This document shows positions 54,409-64,000 of a stretch of DNA of 64,000 nucleotides, piece by piece (within the stretch, counting starts at the first letter, position 1; every line of letters begins with the position of its first letter). The DNA is from Myxococcus sp. RHSTA-1-4. Lineage in GTDB: Bacteria > Myxococcota > Myxococcia > Myxococcales > Myxococcaceae. The stretch covers positions 1 to 64,000 of the forward strand of contig NZ_JAIQDG010000019.1 of NCBI RefSeq assembly GCF_020037125.1, written 5' to 3'. Both the position numbers and the translations under genes were made by a program. The notes beneath the pieces were generated by a model that saw only the letters and a program-made list of their open reading frames with translations, was not told the origin of the DNA and did not search any database.

Positions 54409-56498
54409 CGCAGCGGCGTCGTAACCCTCGGCGCGGGCAGGTTCGGCGGAGGCAGGTGCGTGTCGAACCACTCCACCAGCCGCTTCGAGCGGTCCCACTG
54501 GTGCTCCAGCTTGCGCAGCCCGTGCCCCTCGTCCGCGTAGATGACGAGCTGGGTCTTCTGCCCCAGCGCCTTGAGCGCCTTGAAGAACTCGTAGCTCTGC
54601 GACGCGGGCACCTCCACGTCCCGCTCACCGTGCAGCAGCAGCGTCGGCGTGCGCACCAGCTTCACGAAGTTGATGGGCGAGCTGCGCGAGTACACGTCCG
54701 GCTCGTCGTACACGGACGCGCCGAAGTACGGCAGCATCCACGTGTCGATGCGGTTCGTCCCGTAGTAGCTCTGCCAGTTGGAGACGCCCGCGCCCGCCAC
54801 CGCCGCCCGGAAGCGCTGCGTCTGCGTCACCGCCCACATCGTCATGTAGCCGCCGTAGCTCCACCCGGTGATGCCCAGCCGCGTCGGGTCCACCGGCTCG
54901 CTGGCCAGCACCGCGTCCACGCCCGCCATGACGTCCCGCAGGTCGCCGTAGCCGAAGTCGCGCCGGTTGGCCTGCACGAAGTCCGCGCCCTGCCCGAAGC
55001 TGCCGCGCGCGTTGGGGAGGAAGACGTAGTAGCCCTGGCTCGTGAGCAGCAGCGCCTGCGGGTGGAAGGCCGGCAGCACTCCCGCCGCCGGCCCGCCGTG
55101 AATCGACGTCACCATGGGCGCCCGGGCACTGCCCACCGGCGGCGTGGGCGGCGCCATCAGCCAACCCTGCATCTCCAGCCCGTCGCTCTTCCACGTCACG
55201 CTGCGCACCGCTCCCACGGGGAGCTTCACCTCCGCGTTGTGACGGGTGACCGGCTTCCACGCCCCCACCGGCCCCACCCACACGTCCGGCGCGCGCGTGA
55301 AGGACTCGCGCAGCACCGCGCTCAGCTCCCCGTCACGTGACAGCGAGGCTCCCACGGAGCCGCCCGCGCTGATGTGCTCGGGGCCCTTCCACAGCATCGT
55401 CACCCCGCCCTTCACCGGGTCTACCGCCCCCAGCGCCGACTCCCCTTGCACCTGCGCGCCAAACACCAGCCGCCCCGGCGCCACCCAGTCCAGGCTGGTG
55501 GCGGTGGCCTTCATCCCCGGGGTGACGTTGCGCGCCTTGCCGCCCGCCGCCGGCACCACGTGGACGTCACCACCATGGACGCCCTGGTCGCTCATCAGCC
55601 CCTCGATGAAGGCGACGTGCTTCCCGTCGGGGCTCCACGTGGGCTCGGCCAGCGCCCACTTCGGCGCGTGGAGCAGCCGCGCGCGGCCCGACTCCACGTC
55701 CACCGCGTGCAGCTTCGCCACCCACCAGTTCGCGTCTCCGGGCGGAGGCGCGGCGGTGATGGCCAGCGTCTCGCTGTCCGGGCTCCACGAGAACTCGTAG
55801 ACGAACAGGTGCTCCGGAGACACGAAGCGGTGCCCGTCACCGTCCGCGTCGACGACGGCCACGCGCCGCACGGGGTGCGACTCCTGCACCACGCCCGTCT
55901 CGCGGGACGCGGGCCCCGTGGGGCCCTTGGCGTGCTCGGCACCGTCGCCCTGCATGACGAGCACCGCGACCGAGTCCCCATCCGGCGCCCACCGCGGAGC
56001 GGACACCGCCGTGGTGAATGACGTCAGCTTCCGCGCAGGGCCGTTGGACACGACGTCCACCACGTAGAGCTGCGCCGTCCCGCCCAGCCCGGCGTCGGAC
56101 AGGAACGCCAGCCGCCGCCCATCCGAATCCCATGTCAGCGAGGACTCGTTGCACGCGCTGTGTCCGAGACAGACGGTGACGTGGACCGGCTTCGCGCCGG
56201 GCTCGGAGAGGTCCAGCACCTGGATGACGCCCCCTCCGTTCCGCGAGCCCGGCTCCGAGCCGGACTCCACCCAGGCCACGCGCTTGCCGTTCGGAGCCAG
56301 GGCCACCTGCCGGAAGCGCACGGTGTCCAGGAGCGCCTCGTAGACGGACTCCAGCGGAGGGCGGACCGCCTTCACCACCGCGCCGCGGAGCGCCACGTCC
56401 GCCTGACGCAGCTCGGCGCCGGAAGTGGCCTGCTGTCCGAGGCCGGGCGCTCCCAGCAGCATCGCGCCCAGTCCGAAGATTCGCGTCACCCGACGCAT
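54405..56498 (-). CDS. S9 family peptidase (dipeptidyl-peptidase/acylaminoacyl type), exported
   Basis: This is 697 residues. The N-terminal GLGAMLLGAPGLGQQA is a signal peptide. The propeller (about 60-430) has repeated WDSDGRR, WAPDGDS, WSPDSET and WSPDGKH blades. The alpha/beta-hydrolase domain (about 440-690) has GWSYGGY with Ser547, LLHGERDVEVP for the Asp and YADEGHGLRK for the His. SIHGGPAAGVL is the oxyanion region. It would cleave oligopeptides outside the cytoplasm. GGGGGAC precedes the ATG. It is a distant homologue of the peptidase at 32631-34658 and convergent with the GNAT gene. Confidence 0.95.
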   Translation of the reverse strand: MRRVTRIFGLGAMLLGAPGLGQQATSGAELRQADVALRGAVVKAVRPPLESVYEALLDTVRFRQVALAPNGKRVAWVESGSEPGSRNGGGVIQVLDLSEPGAKPVHVTVCLGHSACNESSLTWDSDGRRLAFLSDAGLGGTAQLYVVDVVSNGPARKLTSFTTAVSAPRWAPDGDSVAVLVMQGDGAEHAKGPTGPASRETGVVQESHPVRRVAVVDADGDGHRFVSPEHLFVYEFSWSPDSETLAITAAPPPGDANWWVAKLHAVDVESGRARLLHAPKWALAEPTWSPDGKHVAFIEGLMSDQGVHGGDVHVVPAAGGKARNVTPGMKATATSLDWVAPGRLVFGAQVQGESALGAVDPVKGGVTMLWKGPEHISAGGSVGASLSRDGELSAVLRESFTRAPDVWVGPVGAWKPVTRHNAEVKLPVGAVRSVTWKSDGLEMQGWLMAPPTPPVGSARAPMVTSIHGGPAAGVLPAFHPQALLLTSQGYYVFLPNARGSFGQGADFVQANRRDFGYGDLRDVMAGVDAVLASEPVDPTRLGITGWSYGGYMTMWAVTQTQRFRAAVAGAGVSNWQSYYGTNRIDTWMLPYFGASVYDEPDVYSRSSPINFVKLVRTPTLLLHGERDVEVPASQSYEFFKALKALGQKTQLVIYADEGHGLRKLEHQWDRSKRLVEWFDTHLPPPNLPAPRVTTPLR

Positions 56499-56574
56499 CG
56501 AGTCCCCCAGGAGGTAGTGAAGGAAGGGGCCAGCCTACAGGAGTGGACACCGAACACCCACCCCGGATGAGCAC

Positions 56575-57333
56575 CTAGCCGCCGCGCTTCGTCATGTCGA
56601 AGAGCGCTCGCGCCTGCGGCCCCAGGAAGCCGTCGAAGTCCACCGAGCGCTGGGCAATCTCGAAGTAGGCATAGGGCCACGCGCGCGCGCCACCGCCCTT
56701 CAGCGCCACCGGCAGCGGCGCGGCGTGGGTGGCCGTCTGCCGCAGCGACGTGCCGGGGGCGCCCTCGATGTCCGCCTTCATGGGCACACCCGCCTCGCGC
56801 ATGCGCCGCTGCCACACCTCCACGTCATCCACGGAGCCGGTGAAGTGGTTCACCTTGCGGCCGAACGCGAGCAGCCACGCGCCGTACTGCGACTCCTTCT
56901 CCAGCTCCAGCAGCGCGGCCTCGTCCGGCGGCGCCGGCGGCGCGGAGAACCACGCGGCGAGCGCCTCCACGTCATCCGGCGCGGGCGGGTCCTCGGGCAG
57001 CGCGGCGAGCAGCTCGCGGGCGCGCGGGGAGAGCTCCTCCTGCTTCAGCTCGGAGATGAAGACGCGCGGCAGCCCCGCCGGATGGGACATGTAGATGGCG
57101 GACAGGTGCGCGTCGGGGAAGGTGTACGCACCCGCGGGCTTCCACCCGAGCCGCTCGAAGGGCCGGGAGAACATCGCGATGCCGCTGCCGGGCCGGGCCA
57201 GCGAACGGAGCGCGACGTGGTCGTTGCGGAAGCTGCCCCCGGAGAGCTGGACGAAGGTGCGCGCGTAGGGCACCTCGGCGGCGTAGCGCTCCCAGAGCAG
57301 CGCGAGGAGACGGGTGGCATGGGCGGTCGTCAT
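56575..57333 (-). CDS. DUF1338 protein (2-oxoadipate dioxygenase/decarboxylase-like)
   Basis: This is 252 residues from the ATG at 57333 (the upstream Arg-rich extension is not used). FRNDHVALRSLA (His39), KVNHFTGSVDDVEVW (His) and YAYFEIAQRSVDF (Glu) match the Fe(II)-binding triad of DUF1338 enzymes; a characterised member in Pseudomonas putida (HglS) converts 2-oxoadipate to D-2-hydroxyglutarate in lysine catabolism. This protein is shorter than HglS, so substrate may differ. It stands alone: the upstream 588 bases are non-coding and the downstream gene is 76 bases away on the same strand. Confidence 0.88.
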   Translation of the reverse strand: MTTAHATRLLALLWERYAAEVPYARTFVQLSGGSFRNDHVALRSLARPGSGIAMFSRPFERLGWKPAGAYTFPDAHLSAIYMSHPAGLPRVFISELKQEELSPRARELLAALPEDPPAPDDVEALAAWFSAPPAPPDEAALLELEKESQYGAWLLAFGRKVNHFTGSVDDVEVWQRRMREAGVPMKADIEGAPGTSLRQTATHAAPLPVALKGGGARAWPYAYFEIAQRSVDFDGFLGPQARALFDMTKRGG

Positions 57334-57921
57334 GGCGCGGCAATGTAGCGCCACGCCTGGACGTGCGGCCCGCGCCCGAGAAGCTCCTGATGCCGGAAAA
57401 AAGAGCGGCGGCGCGCGGGTCCGGGTCCTTGGAGGGGACTGCTCAACCGGATACGCGCGCCGCCGTGCAGCGCGGAGGCTGCTGGAGACTCGCCTTGGAG
57501 TTTCGAGTCTCCACACCCATGGTATGCATTGACTTCCTTCCCGCCACCGCCCTCACCGCCCGAAAGCGAGCGCGGAGATAGGGTGTGCCGGGTAAAAACG
57601 CCAGCGCCACGCAAGACTCTTCATCAACAGCGCATTGCGCCATCCTGAAGCAAAGCTAATTGACAGGTTCGTCACGGTAAGATTGCGCCATCAATGTGCG
57701 ACGGGGAGCCAAAGGCAGCTCCACGGAACGCCTGTGCCCGCCCGTCCCCCCACATGCCTTCGTGCGGCACATCTGCCAGGAGTTGAGAACGCGAGAGCGG
57801 AGACGGCCCCACAGGCCCGGCTCCACCCTCTGCCAGCGCGACGCCCCACACCGGGCCCCGCGCGGGTGTGGAAGGAACGCTCGTTCCACGAAATCTTCCC
57901 GGGCGTGCGCCGCGCGTCCGG
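57334..57921. other. 588-base gene-free region with hairpins and a repeated 11-mer
   Basis: No coding frame is convincing. It holds a hairpin with 9-bp arms (GGAGACTCG 57484-57492, CGAGTCTCC 57504-57512), an A/T-richer stretch at 57580-57695 with the 11-mer ATTGCGCCATC twice in direct orientation (57634-57644 and 57682-57692, 48 bases apart), a consensus TTGACA at 57660-57665 and a palindrome GGAACG/CGTTCC at 57874-57887. The last is just after the stop of the leftward gene at 57922 and may end it. A small RNA or regulated promoter is possible but not shown. Confidence 0.45.
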
Positions 57922-58443
57922 TCAGTGCAGGTGCTCGGGGAGCATGGGCAGGCCGTGGAAGAAGCGGCGCCCGCTCTCGAAGCGGCGGTGGAAGCAGAGG
58001 CGGTCCTCCAGGTAGAGCCGGGCCATGTCCTCCTCGCCGTAGGCGCGGAAGAAGGTGGCTCGGGCCTCGTCGCACGCGGCCTCGTACTCCGCGCAGAGGG
58101 CCTCCCACTCCTCGGGCGGCGTCTCGTCGTCGTGCCAGGCTCCGTCGCCCAGGCCGTACTCGCGCTCCATCAGGTCCAGCTCGCGCGCGAGCCGCCGCAC
58201 GCGCGGGTCCTCGCTGATGGCCTCGTCCGCCATGGCGGTGAGGATGTGGGCCACCAGGAAGAAGCCCGCGTCCGGCGGCACCACGCCCTCCTCGCGCGCG
58301 GCGCGGAAGGCCACCAGCAGCTGCGCGTCCATGGCGTCGTCGCCCAGCTCCATCAACCGCGCGGCGAGTCCCCGCCACCGCGCCTCCGTCTCGCGGGCCT
58401 CCTGGAGGGCCAGCGTCAGCTCCTGGTCTCGCGTCTTCTTCAT
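57922..58443 (-). CDS. Helical protein, function unknown
   Basis: This is 173 residues from the ATG at 58443 (GGAGC upstream). It is predicted soluble and almost wholly helical: TRDQELTLALQEARETEARWRGLAARLMELGDD, DAQLLVAFRAAREEG, GFFLVAHILTAMADEAIS, VRRLARELDLMEREYGL, then EEWEALCAEYEAACDEARATFFRAYGEEDMARLYLEDR and a His/Phe-rich tail (FFHGLPMLPEHLH). The sequence is acidic with no signal peptide. I do not recognise the family. It is divergent from a GNAT gene with a 165-base gap and has a palindrome shortly after its stop. Confidence 0.8.
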   Translation of the reverse strand: MKKTRDQELTLALQEARETEARWRGLAARLMELGDDAMDAQLLVAFRAAREEGVVPPDAGFFLVAHILTAMADEAISEDPRVRRLARELDLMEREYGLGDGAWHDDETPPEEWEALCAEYEAACDEARATFFRAYGEEDMARLYLEDRLCFHRRFESGRRFFHGLPMLPEHLH

Positions 58444-58608
58444 GACGTGCTCCTGAATGAAAATCCCCTCGAGGCTCCCATCCGGGTCTGACGTTTGAGC
58501 GGCGATTCCCAGAACGTCAGAGCTTGCGGCTGCCTGCACCGCCGTTGCCTGGAGGACTCCGGGGGAAGGTCCGCGTGCGGTGGTGGACGCCGCGTTGCCC
58601 GGCGGTCC

Positions 58609-59118
58609 ATGCTGCCTTGCACCGTGCCCGTCACCCTGCGTCCCGCCACCGCCTCGGACGAGGCCTTCCTGTTCGCCCTCTACGCCAGCACCCGCGAGGA
58701 CGAGGTGGCCATGTGGGGCTGGGCCCCGGCACAGCGGGACGCCTTCCTGCGGATGCAGTGGCTGGCGCAGGGACGCGACTGGGCCACCCGTTACGCCGGG
58801 GCGGACCATCGCCTGGTGCTGGTGGAGGGGCAGCCCGCGGGGAGGCTGCTGGTGGCGCGCGGTGAACGGGAGTGGCGCCTCGTGGACATCGCCCTGCTGC
58901 CGGCGAGCCGGGGCTCGGGCGTGGGAACGCGCCTGCTGCGAGAGCTGCAAGGCGAGGCGGCGAAGGCGCGCGTGCCGCTGAAGCTGCGCGTGCTGAAGGG
59001 CAGCCCCGCGCACCGGCTGTACACGCGGCTGGGCTTCCAGCCGGACACGGCGGCGCCCGCCGGTGAGGGCGACCTGTACCTGGCCCTGGAGTGGCTGCCC
59101 ACGCCGCGCGGGGGCTGA
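58609..59118 (+). CDS. GNAT-family N-acetyltransferase
   Basis: This is 169 residues from the ATG at 58609 (MLPCTVPVTLRPATASDEAFLFALYASTREDEV). The GNAT core is LLVARGEREWRLVDIALLPASRGSGVGTRLLRELQGEA, whose RGSGVGT is the acetyl-CoA loop, followed by LRVLKGSPAHRLYTRLGFQPD. The substrate is unknown. There is no strong ribosome site, and the upstream in-frame extension is Arg/Cys-rich and not family-like. It is convergent with the collagen-like gene; a perfect hairpin separates them. Confidence 0.92.
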   Translation: MLPCTVPVTLRPATASDEAFLFALYASTREDEVAMWGWAPAQRDAFLRMQWLAQGRDWATRYAGADHRLVLVEGQPAGRLLVARGEREWRLVDIALLPASRGSGVGTRLLRELQGEAAKARVPLKLRVLKGSPAHRLYTRLGFQPDTAAPAGEGDLYLALEWLPTPRGG

Positions 59119-59170
59119 GGCTCCCCGGGCCAGGGCTTCGAGAGAACGCGGCATGCGCCTGGAACACGAA

Positions 59171-59199
59171 CGGCCCGCGAGCTGATTGCCCGCGGGCCG
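59171..59199. terminator. Perfect 9-bp hairpin between convergent genes
   Basis: CGGCCCGCG (59171-59179) and CGCGGGCCG (59191-59199) flank an 11-base loop in the 112-base gap between the GNAT gene and the collagen-like gene. There is no T-run. It probably serves both directions. Confidence 0.6.
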
Positions 59200-59230
59200 C
59201 CGTGTGTCACTTCAGGCCATCCGGCTCACG

Positions 59231-61399
59231 TCACATGAACAGGTTCTCCGGGGTGGGCGTCACCGTCTGGAAGCTGTAGCCGGCCGAGCCCGCCTGCGGC
59301 GCCTGGGGCGTCGTGAGGTTGCCCGAGCCACCATCGCCTCCGTTGCCGCCGCACGCGCCGCCGCCACCGCCGGAGGTGATGGCCGAGCTGGCCCCTGTGG
59401 GATTCGCCGTAACGCCCGCGGCCCCGCCGCTCACGTCGATGGTGCCGCTCACCGTGGGCGAGGCGGACGAGAGCAGGTGGATGAAGCCGCCACCACCGCC
59501 ACCACCACCGCCCTTGCCCGCGCCACCACCGTTGTTGCCGTCACCGCCACGGCCGCCGATGGCGCGGAGGGCGCCCCCCACGTTGATGGCCGTCTTGCCC
59601 ACGATGACGAGGGCACCACCCGCGCCACCGCCCGAGCCCGGGGTGTTGGCCAACGTGCCGCCGTTGTCGCCGATGGCGTTGATGGCCCCCCCCGGCTGTA
59701 CCCGGAAGGTGCCCGCCGCGAGGATGACCAGCGAGCCGCCGCCCGCGCCGCCGCTGACGCCAGCCTGCTTGGCGCCCGCGCCGCCACCCAGGGCGCCAGG
59801 CCGCACGAGCTGCGCGGCCTGGAGCGGTGCCAGCCCGCGCCCGGCCTGGGGCTCACTCGCCGGAGCCCGGGCCACTCCCGATTCCGGAGAACCAACGCCG
59901 GTATCCTCGGCGCTCGGGGCCACGAGGATCGTGCCCGTGCTGCTGACGGTGAAGTCCCCCGTGGCCCGAATGACGGTGCCGCTCGGGACGACGAGGGTGC
60001 TGTTGATGGTGACGGTGGTGAACTGCAGGTGCTGCCGGCCCGCCAGGGAGCTGTACCCCGCGACGGTGGTGAGGTCCGTCGGCGAGTTCACGGTGAGCGG
60101 GCCGGCCGAGCCATCACCGTAGACACCCGTCGAGCCCGCGGGCCCCTGCGGCCCCTGCGGACCCGTGGCGCCCTGCGGACCCGTGGCGCCCTGCTGACCC
60201 TGGATGCCCTGCGGACCCTGGATGCCCTGAGGGCCCTGCGCGCCGTTGCACACGTAGCGCGTCAGCGCGGCGTTCACCTCGCCTGCGTCCAGCGTGCCGT
60301 TGCTGTTGGCGTCCGTGCCGAACTGGAGCCGCACGCCGCCCGTGGCGCAGTTGGCGCCAGCGGCCTCGGCGGCCGTCGCCGACAGCGAGTTGAGCCCCGC
60401 CGGACCCGCCGGGCCCTGCTCACCGCGCAGGCCCTGGGGACCCTGGATGCCCTGGATGCCCTGAGGCCCCTGCGCGCCGTTGCAGACGTAGCGGGTCAGC
60501 GCGGCGTCCACTTCGGCCGCGTCCAGCGTGCCGTTGCGGTTGGCGTCGATGCCCGCCTCCAGCCTCACGCCGCCGGTGGCGCAGTTCGCCCCTGCCGCTT
60601 CGGCGCTGGTGCGCACCAGCGCGCTCAGGCCGACGAGGCCCTGCGGACCGGTGGGCCCCTGCGGGCCCTCGGGGCCGCGCTCCCCCTGGGGGCCCTGCGG
60701 GCCGGTGGCACCCTGCGGACCGGTGGCGCCCTGCTGGCCCTGCGGCCCCACCTCGCCCTGGGGCCCCTGCGGGCCCGTGTCACCCCGGGGACCGGTGAGG
60801 CCGATGGGCCCCTGGATGCCCTGCTCCCCCTGAATGCCCTGCAGACCGCGCTCGCCTTGCGGACCCGCCGGGCCCTGCTCGCCGCGAAGCCCCTGCGGAC
60901 CGGTCTCACCGATGGGACCCGCGGGGCCCTGCACGCCCTGCGCGCCGTTGCAGACGTAGCGGGTCAGGTCCGCGTCCACCTCGTCGTTCTCCAGTTCGCC
61001 GTTGCGGTTGGCGTCGACGCCCGCCTCGAACAGCACGCCGCCGGTGGCGCAATTGGCGCCCGCCGGCTCCGCGGTGGTGCGCACCAGCGCGCTCAGGCCC
61101 GTCTCGCCCTGCGGGCCACCCGCGGGGCCTGCTGGGCCTTGTGGCCCCTGCGGACCCGCCGGGCCCGCCTCTCCCGTGTCACCCTTCGGACCCGCGAGGC
61201 CCTGCTCGCCCTGAGGACCCGCGGGGCCGGCCACGCCCTGCTCCCCCTGGGGACCCGAGGGGCCCGCGGGGCCCGCCGGGCCCTGTGGCCCCTGCTTGCT
61301 CAGTTCATCACAGCCGGACAGCACCAACATCGCCGTCAGCGGGAGCGCCTTCCAGAACCTCGCATGCGCGGGGCGTCGCCAATTCACAAGAGCAGCCAT
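59231..61399 (-). CDS. Collagen-like lipoprotein with three 54-residue DUF7151-type modules
   Basis: This is 722 residues. The lipobox LVLSGC gives Cys30. Residues 37-101, 156-257, 312-335 and 390-425 are collagen-like Gly-X-Y triplets (GPQ, GPA, GEQ, GIQ). Between them lie three near-identical 54-residue modules (102-155, 258-311, 336-389), each with GANCATGGV, an EF-hand-like DANRNG loop and RYVCNG, so each probably has one disulfide and may bind Ca2+. The last 300 residues are a Gly-rich beta region ([25 protein letters not shown]) like pectate-lyase-type or adhesin stalks. GGAGA precedes the ATG. It is likely a rod-shaped surface protein; proline hydroxylation is not expected. Confidence 0.93.
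60233..61096 (-). repeat. Three modular repeats in the collagen-like gene
   Basis: The 162-bp modules lie at 60935-61096, 60467-60628 and 60233-60394. Each encodes 54 residues, exactly 18 triplets, so they drop into the Gly-X-Y register without disturbing it. Spacers are 102 and 24 residues of collagen-like triplets. This points to growth by unequal recombination between modules. Confidence 0.85.
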
Positions 61400-61846
61400 C
61401 TGCGGGTCTCCTCGTCGGGGAACTCAGTGCCGGGAGGCCCAGAGCAAGCCTCGCGCCAGAGAGTGTCTGGATGAGGGGAGGGGCAGCCATGCACGCCCTT
61501 CGGCAGTGAGGCGGGCGCTATCGTCGCTTGAGTTACTGCTGCGACCCCAGCCCCTCCGGCGTCCCGGAGGCACGCAGTCGCGTCACTTCCAGACGCACTG
61601 TTTCCGAGAAATCACCGCGCACCTCCATGCGTCACGGGGGAACGCATCCGCGTCTCAGCCGAACGCGCCGGCGCGGTGCACCATGCGCCCCATCCGCCGA
61701 GCCGCCGCGCGTGCCGCTCTCGTGGAGGCCGCGGCAAGGTCCTCTTCGCCCCGGGGTTTCACGCGTGGCCGGCTCTTTGCTCTGCGTGGGAGCGGCATGT
61801 TTTTGTTCTCAGTGAAACACTCACAGCCACACAAAGGAAGGCGTAC
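61400..61846. other. Divergent promoter region
   Basis: It lies between the leftward collagen-like gene and the rightward tail-collar gene. It contains a sigma54-like site (61766-61782) for the rightward gene. No leftward promoter is clear. In-frame extensions of the tail-collar gene into this stretch are Arg/Pro-rich and were not accepted as coding. Confidence 0.45.
61766..61782 (+). promoter_or_regulatory. Sigma54-like -24/-12 promoter candidate
   Basis: TGGCCGGCTCTTTGCT has the key GG and GC dinucleotides 10 bases apart, with TGGC at -24 and TTGCT at -12. It departs from consensus at TGGCAC (CG for AC). The expected start is near 61793, about 55 bases before the GTG start codon. Myxobacteria use many sigma54 promoters, so the match is plausible but unproven. 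Confidence 0.4.
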
Positions 61847-62371
61847 GTGTCCGAGCCATTCATCGGTGAGATTCGCATGTTCGGCGGCAACTTCGCTCCC
61901 CGGGGTTGGGCGTTCTGCCAGGGGCAGCTTCTCTCCATCGCGCAGAACTCGGCGCTCTTCTCCATCCTCGGCACCACGTACGGCGGCAACGGGCAGACGA
62001 CGTTCGCCCTGCCGGACCTGCGCGGCCGGTATCCCATGCAGCCCGGCCAGGGCCCGGGCCTGTCCCCCCGAACCCTGGGTGAGCAGGGCGGCAGCGAGAC
62101 GGTGACGCTGCTCTCCACGCAGATTCCGGCGCACAACCACACCCTCAGCGTGAGCAGCCAGAACGGCGACACGGAGACGCCCATCGGCACCGTGCTGGCG
62201 GCGGACTCGACGGCGACGGTCCTCAATTACCGCGCCGCGCCCATCGACGGGACCATGAACCCCGCGGCCATCGGCCTCACCGGCGGCAACCAGCCTCACA
62301 ACAACATGCCGCCCTTCACCTGCGTCAACTTCATCATCGCGCTGGAAGGCATCTACCCCTCGCGCAACTGA
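61847..62371 (+). CDS. Phage tail-collar domain protein (microcystin-dependent-protein family)
   Basis: This is 174 residues from a GTG with AAGGAAGG upstream (VSEPFIGEIRMFGGNFAPRGWAFCQGQLL). The tail-collar signature is clear: GEIRMFGGNFAPRGW, LFSILGTTYGGNGQTTFALPDLRGR and NHTLSVS, ending QPHNNMPPFTCVNFIIALEG. Such proteins are small, trimeric, secreted or phage-tail-like surface proteins; bacterial homologues (MdpB-type) are named after a cyanobacterial protein but their role is unknown. It is a single copy here, whereas myxobacterial genomes often carry two or three in tandem. A perfect GC hairpin follows. The candidate sigma54 promoter suggests regulated expression. Confidence 0.93.
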   Translation: MSEPFIGEIRMFGGNFAPRGWAFCQGQLLSIAQNSALFSILGTTYGGNGQTTFALPDLRGRYPMQPGQGPGLSPRTLGEQGGSETVTLLSTQIPAHNHTLSVSSQNGDTETPIGTVLAADSTATVLNYRAAPIDGTMNPAAIGLTGGNQPHNNMPPFTCVNFIIALEGIYPSRN

Positions 62372-62395
62372 AGCACCGCGCTGTCCCCTGAAGCA

Positions 62396-62434
62396 CGGCG
62401 CGCCTCGCTCCATCCTGGGAAGCGGGGCGCGCCG
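62396..62434 (+). terminator. Strong hairpin downstream of the tail-collar gene
   Basis: CGGCGCGCCTCGCT (62396-62409) pairs with AGCGGGGCGCGCCG (62421-62434) over 14 bp with a single G-T wobble, loop of 11 bases, 24 bases after the stop. No T-run. The remaining 274 bases to the next gene hold no coding frame with a plausible start. Confidence 0.65.
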
Positions 62435-62708
62435 GACGTCCCATCCGCCATCGCGAACCACGGCAGCGAAGCGAGCCGATTCACCGCCGCGTCCCGCGTT
62501 CACCGCTGAACGAGCCCCCTGCCCCTCCGGGCGACACGCCGTCGTGCATCCCGCCCTCCAAGCCGCGCCACATGACCGGCGACGCGGCGCGGGAGGGCGC
62601 ATCCCCACAGGTCAGTGGAGACCCTGCACGCGCGGGGGGCTGGCCCTCTCGTCCGGCAGGGCGCACTCGGATGAAGGGTACGACGGTCGAACAGGCGTGG
62701 AGGGCACA

Positions 62709-63803
62709 GTGGCCCCTGAGCGCGACGGAGCGGGACAGCGTTCGCAGGTGACGCTGAGGACGGCGTTCACCGTGTGTTTCGCGGTGCTCGGGGTGGCGGT
62801 GCTGGTGGCGCTGGTGGTGCGCACGCGGGTGGCGCTCACGCTGACGGGCATCGCGGCGCTGCTGGCCCTGGCGCTGGAGCATGCGGTGTCCCGGCTGGAG
62901 CGCGGGGGACTGCCGCGGATGGCGGCCATCGCGGTGGTGATGACCGGGCTGCTGGCGGTGCTGGTGACGCTGGCGCTGCTGGTGGTGCCCGCCGCGGCGG
63001 CGCAGGTGGACGCGATGGTGCTCCAGTGGCCACAGCTCTGGGAGGAGCTGCGCGGCTCGCGCCCGTTCCGGACGCTGGACGAGCGGCTCCACAGCCTGGG
63101 GTGGACGCGCCGGCTGGAGGAGGCCACGCCGCGGCTCGCCGCGGGGAAGCTGCCGGAATTGGTGGTGCTCGCCATCGGCGGAGCGGTGGGACTGGCCGGC
63201 GGAGCGCTCACCGTGTTCTTCCTGGTGGGCTTCATGCTGGCGTTCGGCGGCGGACTGCTGCGGCGGCTGCTGGACCTGGCGCGGCCGGAGCACCGCCTGC
63301 GCTACGTGCGCGTGCTGCGCAACGTGTACCGGGCCACCGGCGGCTACCTGGCCGGGCTCACGCTCATCTGCACCATCAACGCCACGCTCACCACCACCGT
63401 GCTGGCGCTGATGGGCGTGCCGTACTTCCTGCCGCTCGGCCTCGCCAGCGGCTTCTCCAGCATGGTGCCCTACGCGGGGCCGGTGGTCGCCGGTGGCTTC
63501 ATCACCCTGCTGACGTGGGCCACGGGGGGCATGTGGCTGGCGCTGGGGGTGCTCGCGTACTTCGTGCTGTACGGGCAGGTGGAGGGCAACGTGCTGGCGC
63601 CGCTCGTCTTCCGGCGCACGGTGCACGTCAACCCGCTCATCATCCTGCTGGCGGTGCTCTTCTGCGCGGAACTGGCGGGTGTGGTGGGCGCGATGGTGGC
63701 GGTGCCCGTGGCGGCCTCCGCGCAAATCATCACCCACGAACTGCTGCTGCTCCGCCAGGAGCGCCGCGCCGCCATGCGCCGCGCGCCTCCCGGAGCCGCG
63801 TGA
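62709..63803 (+). CDS. AI-2E family transporter-like permease
   Basis: This is 364 residues from a GTG at 62709 with GGAGGG five bases upstream. Eight or so membrane helices are visible (FTVCFAVLGVAVLVALVV, AIAVVMTGLLAVLVTLALLV, LAIGGAVGLAGGALTVFFLVGFML, LICTINATLTTTVLALMGVPYFLPLG and a cluster near the end). The family motif PYAGPVV and the last loop YFVLYGQVEGNVLAPLVFRR...HVNPLIILLAVLFCAELAGVVGAMVAVPVA match AI-2E (PerM) proteins. The name is historical; many members do not carry autoinducer-2. Substrate unknown. The bioA gene converges 13 bases beyond its stop. Confidence 0.92.
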   Translation: MAPERDGAGQRSQVTLRTAFTVCFAVLGVAVLVALVVRTRVALTLTGIAALLALALEHAVSRLERGGLPRMAAIAVVMTGLLAVLVTLALLVVPAAAAQVDAMVLQWPQLWEELRGSRPFRTLDERLHSLGWTRRLEEATPRLAAGKLPELVVLAIGGAVGLAGGALTVFFLVGFMLAFGGGLLRRLLDLARPEHRLRYVRVLRNVYRATGGYLAGLTLICTINATLTTTVLALMGVPYFLPLGLASGFSSMVPYAGPVVAGGFITLLTWATGGMWLALGVLAYFVLYGQVEGNVLAPLVFRRTVHVNPLIILLAVLFCAELAGVVGAMVAVPVAASAQIITHELLLLRQERRAAMRRAPPGAA

Positions 63804-63816
63804 CGCGAGCGGACGC

Positions 63817-64000
63817 TCAGCCCGCCGACACCTCGCGCAGCGACGCCTCCACCCCTTCGAGCAGCTCCGTCAGCGCGTCGTCGGGGATGTTGAGCGCGGG
63901 GGCGATGTACACGGTGTCGCCCAGGGGCCGGAGGTACAGCCCCCGGCGCCGGGCCGCCTCGTACACGCGCCAGCCGCCGCGCGCGAGGTAGCCGCCGCCG
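63817..64000 (-). CDS. bioA: Adenosylmethionine-8-amino-7-oxononanoate aminotransferase, C-terminal fragment
   Basis: The last 61 codons are visible; the rest lies beyond the right edge. The end reads GLYLRPLGDTVYIAPALNIPDDALTELLEG, the typical BioA C-terminus (RPLGDTVY followed by PPLNI-like residues). BioA makes 7,8-diaminononanoate from KAPA and S-adenosylmethionine, with pyridoxal phosphate, in biotin synthesis. Other class III aminotransferases share related tails, but RPLGDTVY strongly favours BioA. The neighbouring genes that would confirm a biotin cluster are not in the window. Confidence 0.85.
   Translation of the reverse strand, partial: GGGYLARGGWRVYEAARRRGLYLRPLGDTVYIAPALNIPDDALTELLEGVEASLREVSAG

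Follow-up and report, generated by a model that had tools for sequence, protein, structure and literature searches.

DUF7151 modules with a calcium-type loop as putative optional beads in a collagen-like lipoprotein of Myxococcus

Among the systems closest to the protein described here, PclA of Streptococcus pneumoniae has collagen-like regions interspersed with other domains (PMC8968730), and EPclB, a prophage fiber of E. coli O157:H7, appears in electron micrographs that suggest three globular parts and two stalks, one of the globular parts (Pf2) being internal (excerpt of PMC3368898). Trimerization has been shown for the C-terminal PfC and the coiled coil PCoil of EPclA (same excerpt of PMC3368898), and in Scl proteins it is the N-terminal domain that nucleates the trimer (excerpts of PMC8968730 and PMC3368898). 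A literature search combining Myxococcus with collagen triple helix matched a single paper, on red coral.

Here, we describe a gene for a 722-aa collagen-like protein in a window of 64,000 nucleotides (the whole stretch of DNA analyzed, positions 1 to 64,000 of contig NZ_JAIQDG010000019.1) from Myxococcus sp. RHSTA-1-4. From N to C terminus, the protein consists of a signal peptide with a lipobox, four Gly-X-Y runs alternating with three modules, and a 298-aa head. These features and the two neighboring genes are located as follows:

59231..61399, minus strand: gene of the 722-aa collagen-like (predicted) lipoprotein, a single ATG-started open reading frame
61310..61321, minus strand: lipobox LSGC (Cys30) at the end of the signal peptide, from the sequence
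61112..61291, minus strand: Gly-X-Y run 1, 20 triplets, residues 37-96, from the run count
60935..61096, minus strand: module 1 (DUF7151), 54 aa, from the Pfam profile
60980..61015, minus strand: EF-hand-type loop of module 1, residues 129-140, from the pattern
60629..60934, minus strand: Gly-X-Y between modules 1 and 2, 102 aa, from module matches and run count
60467..60628, minus strand: module 2 (DUF7151), 54 aa, from the Pfam profile and a structure model
60512..60547, minus strand: EF-hand-type loop of module 2, residues 285-296, from the pattern
60395..60466, minus strand: Gly-X-Y between modules 2 and 3, 24 aa, from module matches and run count
60233..60394, minus strand: module 3 (DUF7151), 54 aa, from the Pfam profile
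60278..60313, minus strand: EF-hand-type loop of module 3, residues 363-374, from the pattern
60128..60232, minus strand: Gly-X-Y between module 3 and the head, about 36 aa, from the run count
59234..60127, minus strand: C-terminal head, 298 aa, glycine-rich, predicted to be beta-solenoid-like, with no credible Pfam match
61802..62371, plus strand: divergent neighbor, a phage tail collar domain protein (PF07484), 104.5 bits
58579..59118, plus strand: neighbor on the other side, a GNAT acetyltransferase, from a family match

Runs 1 to 4 comprise 20, 36, 10, and 15 triplets; those of runs 2 to 4 were counted from the Gly after each module's second Cys, and module coordinates were taken from the profile matches, the third of which begins at module residue 2. 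The Pfam Collagen family (PF01391) is matched with 86.4 bits, above its cut-off of 27.2. A preliminary description of this DNA had reported three 54-residue modules, each with one Cys pair and an EF-hand-like loop, and both observations hold for all three modules at the positions given above; its Gly-X-Y spacings of 102, 24, and 36 residues are also correct, with the 20 triplets of run 1 missing from its list. A loose lipobox pattern at most 15 aa before the first run is found in 53 of the 59 head-bearing proteins having a Gly-X-Y run. Opposite the rod gene lies a 762-aa open frame (59186-61474, plus strand), most likely a by-product of GC-rich Gly-X-Y codons. An Rfam scan of positions 55000-64000 gave no match, and consensus scans found no promoter-like site and one terminator-like site, where 0.8 would be expected.

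The gene neighborhood is largely kept: the collar gene adjoins the rod gene in 25 of 28 loci and the GNAT gene in 24 of 28, these loci including at least two same-genome pairs (L038/L251 and L040/L250). The collar match is present in L249 and absent in L207 and L213. A functional link between the collar protein and the rod gene is possible, judging from this arrangement. In L036, the collar protein is 90% identical, and the best segment of the rod is 69% identical.

Scored together, the three modules match the Pfam family DUF7151 (PF23657) with 169.9 bits in three stretches (cut-off, 27.2), and each passes the cut-off when scored singly, so that their resemblance is not due to chance. Every module contains exactly two cysteines (residues 117/150, 273/306, and 351/384) and, once, the 12-residue loop D-x-N-x-N-G-x-L-x-x-x-E. 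We collected 398 modules, of which 392 distinct ones were used for the register count and 352, with a Cys spacing of 31 or 33 and enough flank, for the counts of loops, length forms, and positions; own-genome duplicate loci (L001-L033 and L151) and open reading frames inside longer ones were left out before all counts. The whole loop pattern is kept in 328 of the 352 modules, and its first Asp and last Glu in 99%. Conservation is strong outside the loop too, as exemplified by E-x-A-G-x-N-C in collagen-embedded modules.

An AlphaFold2 monomer model of the bead, built for module 2 with 70 relatives (set A1, out of 209 selected modules), is compact and confident (pLDDT 93.3). Its strands span residues 5-12, 22-29, and 48-51, and the loop follows the second of them; since helical turns reach three residues only, the predicted bead is without the helix-loop-helix of an EF-hand. 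All Pfam EF-hand models scored below their cut-offs (18.1 of 25, 16.8 of 25.4, and 12.4 of 25.9 bits), and the bead model matched no PDB structure at E ≤0.001, the best VIA-align Z among 12 chains being 2.3. The module likely binds calcium, given that the loop pattern is conserved and that the same loop is used in several known folds: a Dx[DN]xDG calcium motif occurs outside EF-hands in several folds (excerpt of PMC3123361). DUF7151, of which all three modules are members, is catalogued in Pfam without a described function, and its name was not found in our literature search; the present analysis describes its calcium-type loop, its two length forms, and how the number of beads varies.

The head was modeled as a monomer with high confidence (AlphaFold2, pLDDT 95.1, pTM 0.92; set A2, 49 of 57 heads) and is predicted to be beta-rich and solenoid-like. 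Searching the 49 heads against Pfam at E 0.1 returned only two families, each hit by a single head and neither credible; the head represents a family that is unlisted in Pfam and has no description. A Foldseek search of the PDB gave no match at E ≤0.001. The best solved structures in VIA-align were ice-binding proteins (Z 6.7, 115-121 residues aligned); the values for 5uyt_A were Z 6.7, rmsd 3.5, and 121 residues aligned, with a Foldseek E above 0.001, and a Z of this level may reflect a common arrangement only. Among predicted viral structures, Foldseek found nine matches at E ≤0.001, three of them to collagen proteins of Pandoravirus or Orpheovirus; these three have E values of 7.6e-7 to 7.8e-6 but TM-scores (query length) of 0.40-0.42 and rmsd values of 7.8-11.1, and glycine-rich composition may inflate such scores. 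At the sequence level, a PHROGs search at E 0.01 gave no match to the head. Neither phage and plasmid records nor 600 pattern-matched stretches from viral contigs yielded a relative, and for a domain this rich in glycine the latter negatives carry little weight, since BLAST masks low-complexity sequence. The head family may link bacterial and giant-virus collagen-like proteins.

The relatives that share this head differ widely in their beads. The preliminary description had suggested comparing module numbers, and across the 59 rows of the head-domain tree the count ranges from zero to four, with a minimum of 20 changes. Eight rows form a supported clade that has no bead on rods of 60-111 triplets, two of which are unbroken (93 and 95 triplets) and six of which carry a 1-2-residue slip. 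In L223, L225-L228, and L252, this slip lies about 15-16 triplets into the rod, near the start of module 1 in bead-bearing relatives. Altogether, 12 of the 59 rows are bead-free: the eight of the clade, L230 (19 triplets), L238 (35 triplets), L237 (no Gly-X-Y counted), and L244, which holds the head portion of a gene divided between two reading frames. The module part of the same rod-gene relative in genome G060 is L161, and this gene may be broken, or the assembly may be in error. Four bead-free loci were tested, and the collar and GNAT neighbors are both present in each of them; with the same neighbors and the same head, relatives at the same place therefore do without beads. Numbers varying from zero to four among close relatives make the beads look like optional spacers and not like parts that hold the rod together. 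As relatives of one family with the same anchor and head and zero to four beads, they provide a natural deletion series for the effects of beads on the rod.

Modules are also found without a collagen rod. DUF7151 is found in 77 of the 96 genomes searched in the family and in 120 of 195 of the window's phylum (Myxococcota). In the phylum of G195 it is present in 6 of 395 sampled genomes, and in that of G196 in 1 of 199 (centre genome included each time); the loci leading to these two phyla are titled Flavobacteriia (L042) and Acidobacteriota (L043). Three places in the own genome carry it: the window, L035, and L034. L035 encodes another collagen-like protein, whose head is of the same kind (40% identical). 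Positions 2362-8409 of L034 encode three adjacent proteins with four to five modules each and no Gly-X-Y run of four or more; all three pass the Pfam cut-off for Recep_L, which we take to be an LRR-like domain, and one also matches an LRR family below cut-off. Elsewhere, a module is combined with Kelch repeats and a short Gly-X-Y part (L195) or with Ig-type domains (L103). DUF7151 thus looks like a general stalk bead. Present in 120 genomes of its phylum, it becomes a testable object: a small two-Cys bead with a calcium loop for building stalks.

The reading that we favor, with a probability of roughly 60%, is that of a stalk protein displaying its head, in which calcium- and disulfide-stabilized beads are optional spacers. 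The gene product would be anchored in the membrane through its lipidated N-terminal Cys and exposed at the surface, and its Gly-X-Y runs would form a homotrimeric collagen-like rod with the beta-solenoid-like head at the tip. The DUF7151 beads, each presumably closed by one disulfide and one calcium-type loop, would be set in this rod as optional spacers, stiffeners, or joints that are gained and lost while anchor and head stay unchanged. The same bead is also strung in tandem in proteins that end in different domains (Recep_L, Kelch). Trimerization would more likely be driven by the head and by the Gly-X-Y sequence itself.

Two features hint that the role of the beads is more specific than that of a passive spacer: an insertion of two residues before Gly-X-Y and the identity of bead positions. 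Regarding the latter, 36 proteins have at least two modules, 94 in all, and for 80 of these the closest module of a different protein sits at the same position (first, middle, or last), while 9 have a still closer copy within their own protein. Regarding the former, 92 of the 103 modules in head-bearing proteins have a Cys-Cys distance of 33. In no-head proteins, modules with at least four triplets on both sides (n = 28) have a distance of 33 in 15 cases and of 31 in 7, and the remaining modules (n = 261) a distance of 31 in 208 and of 33 in 14. Seen from the other side, 120 of the 124 modules with distance 33 are followed by at least four triplets, and only 4 of the 189 modules not so followed have this distance; the 163 that are followed by Gly-X-Y divide into 120 with the two extra residues before the second Cys and 43 with distance 31. 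In the two-module proteins L075, L078, L084, and L185 and in two of L196, it is the 33 type that precedes the Gly-X-Y run and the 31 type that comes after it.

This pattern suggests, though it does not prove, that the two-residue insertion is an adaptation at the exit of the chain into the triple helix. With Gly-X-Y on both sides, the long form accounts for 112 of 135 modules; where only the C side has Gly-X-Y, the 28 modules split into 8 long and 20 short. Since the long form is found even there, with no register to keep, register as the cause of the insertion is weakened, and only weakened: the short form is the commoner one in this setting, which is therefore not a clean test. Among 32 nearest-sequence pairs differing in context, which are not fully independent, the flanked module exceeded its partner in length in 14, never fell below it, and matched it in 18. 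A protein-level Fisher test, which takes no account of relatedness, was not counted as proof. Module trees, from which near-duplicates had been removed, gave one supported independent pair (238 modules) or three (224 modules), and the three split on average into 0.7 with the idea, 1.0 against it, and 1.3 without a difference; trees on so few columns are too weak to count independent events. It is a tentative and rather doubtful proposal that the bead comes in two forms of which the 33 form, its two additional residues lying between calcium loop and second Cys, is adapted to pass the chain into the downstream triple helix, the bead being a calcium/disulfide clamp that seats or restarts the helix. 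If true, such clamps would give bacteria a novel means of punctuating collagen rods, and beads that control the helix by calcium could become switchable joints for recombinant bacterial collagens.

Alternatively, the modules could be ligand-binding (adhesive) domains along the stalk, with calcium shaping the binding face, which we consider unlikely. The surface lipoprotein architecture would suit such a function, as would the conservation that extends beyond the loop and the position-specific conservation of 80 of the 94 modules. However, there is no known binding partner and no clear fold match, and the same module is combined with several unrelated domains, for which a spacer is the better fit.

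Quite unlikely, in our estimate, is the model of the preliminary description, in which the modules are calcium-dependent trimerization nodules that keep the three chains in triplet register. Its collagen-like surface rod agrees with the sequence signs (lipobox and Gly-X-Y runs), and each module does have the calcium-type loop, but the modules have lost their place as elements necessary for the trimer: the eight same-head relatives with rods of 60-111 triplets have none, and modules outside collagen-like proteins, which that description had named as an argument against itself, are found in the same genome in the three L034 proteins. In the bead-free relatives, beads are evidently dispensable; where beads are present, they may still help to trimerize.

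The exact register did not hold up either. Within the 722-aa protein, run 1 is one residue out of phase with runs 2 to 4 due to an extra Gly two triplets before module 1. Moreover, it is the length of a module that fixes the Gly-to-Gly distance across it, and the modules are related, so that the window alone amounts to about one 1-in-3 coincidence; because the three share ancestry, their common length divisible by three is about one such event and not three. In favor of the nodules, the modules in head-bearing proteins mostly (92 of 103) take the longer form, for which the distance is 51, and the distance is a multiple of three in 106 of the 133 flanked modules (those, among the 392 distinct ones, with three or more triplets on the N side and four or more on the C side), well above a third if relatedness is ignored. 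Yet 27 of the 133 are out of phase. For flanked modules in same-head proteins, 88 are in phase and 14 out, and 11 of these 14 are copies of module 1 in relatives, with a distance of 49 and 11-28 triplets after them; on the N side, where the run is broken, these 11 have only 3-4 clean triplets. Phase between the nearest runs of at least four triplets is kept by only 72 of 105 modules of head-bearing proteins, and all runs are in one phase in only 9 of the 48 head-bearing proteins with modules. Furthermore, a homotrimer has no need to preserve phase modulo three, since all of its chains carry the same insert and are displaced equally, whatever the length of that insert. Distances divisible by three are frequent without being a rule, and on the shifted run 1, the out-of-phase modules, and the few single-phase proteins we discarded the idea that exact register governs the design. 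Rods of this kind accept inserts whose length is not a multiple of three, as the out-of-phase beads show.

That the gene pair is a domesticated phage tail-fiber set, with a collagen-like fiber beside a tail collar protein, is very unlikely, for the divergent PF07484 neighbor (104.5 bits, 25 of 28 loci) and the matches of the protein, mainly of its Gly-X-Y part, to 42 PHROG families (many tail fibers among the 25 listed) stand against the lipobox pattern of 53 of 59 head-bearing proteins having a Gly-X-Y run, which to our knowledge is unlike a tail fiber, against a head with no match in PHROGs (E 0.01) or in phage records (where BLAST masks low complexity), and against the other five scanned neighbors, among which there is no phage gene and one matches no family.

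How does the favored stalk with optional beads compare with known systems? PclA is similar in that its Gly-X-Y regions are broken by other domains, as in the 722-aa protein; it has a large C-terminal domain and LPXTG, whereas the 722-aa protein has a lipobox, DUF7151 beads, and another head, the two being set apart by description (excerpt of PMC8968730). EPclB shares an internal globular part between two stalks but is, again by description, a phage fiber with a coiled coil, unlike the 722-aa protein (excerpt of PMC3368898). The Scl1/Scl2 and Lcl adhesins, to which the protein has NCBIfam matches that are all below cut-off (128.4 of 325, 107 of 400, and 124.7 of 500 bits), are likewise Gly-X-Y surface rods, while the 722-aa protein is without LPXTG at its C terminus. 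With the proteins that carry Dx[DN]xDG outside EF-hands, DUF7151 shares an EF-type loop without helix-loop-helix (excerpt of PMC3123361), but its loop is predicted to sit behind a beta strand in a small two-Cys bead. Finally, trimerization by PfC and PCoil in EPclA and by the N-terminal domain in Scl proteins, as the cited excerpts describe it, fits the view that, by analogy, it would be end domains and not internal beads that assemble such rods.
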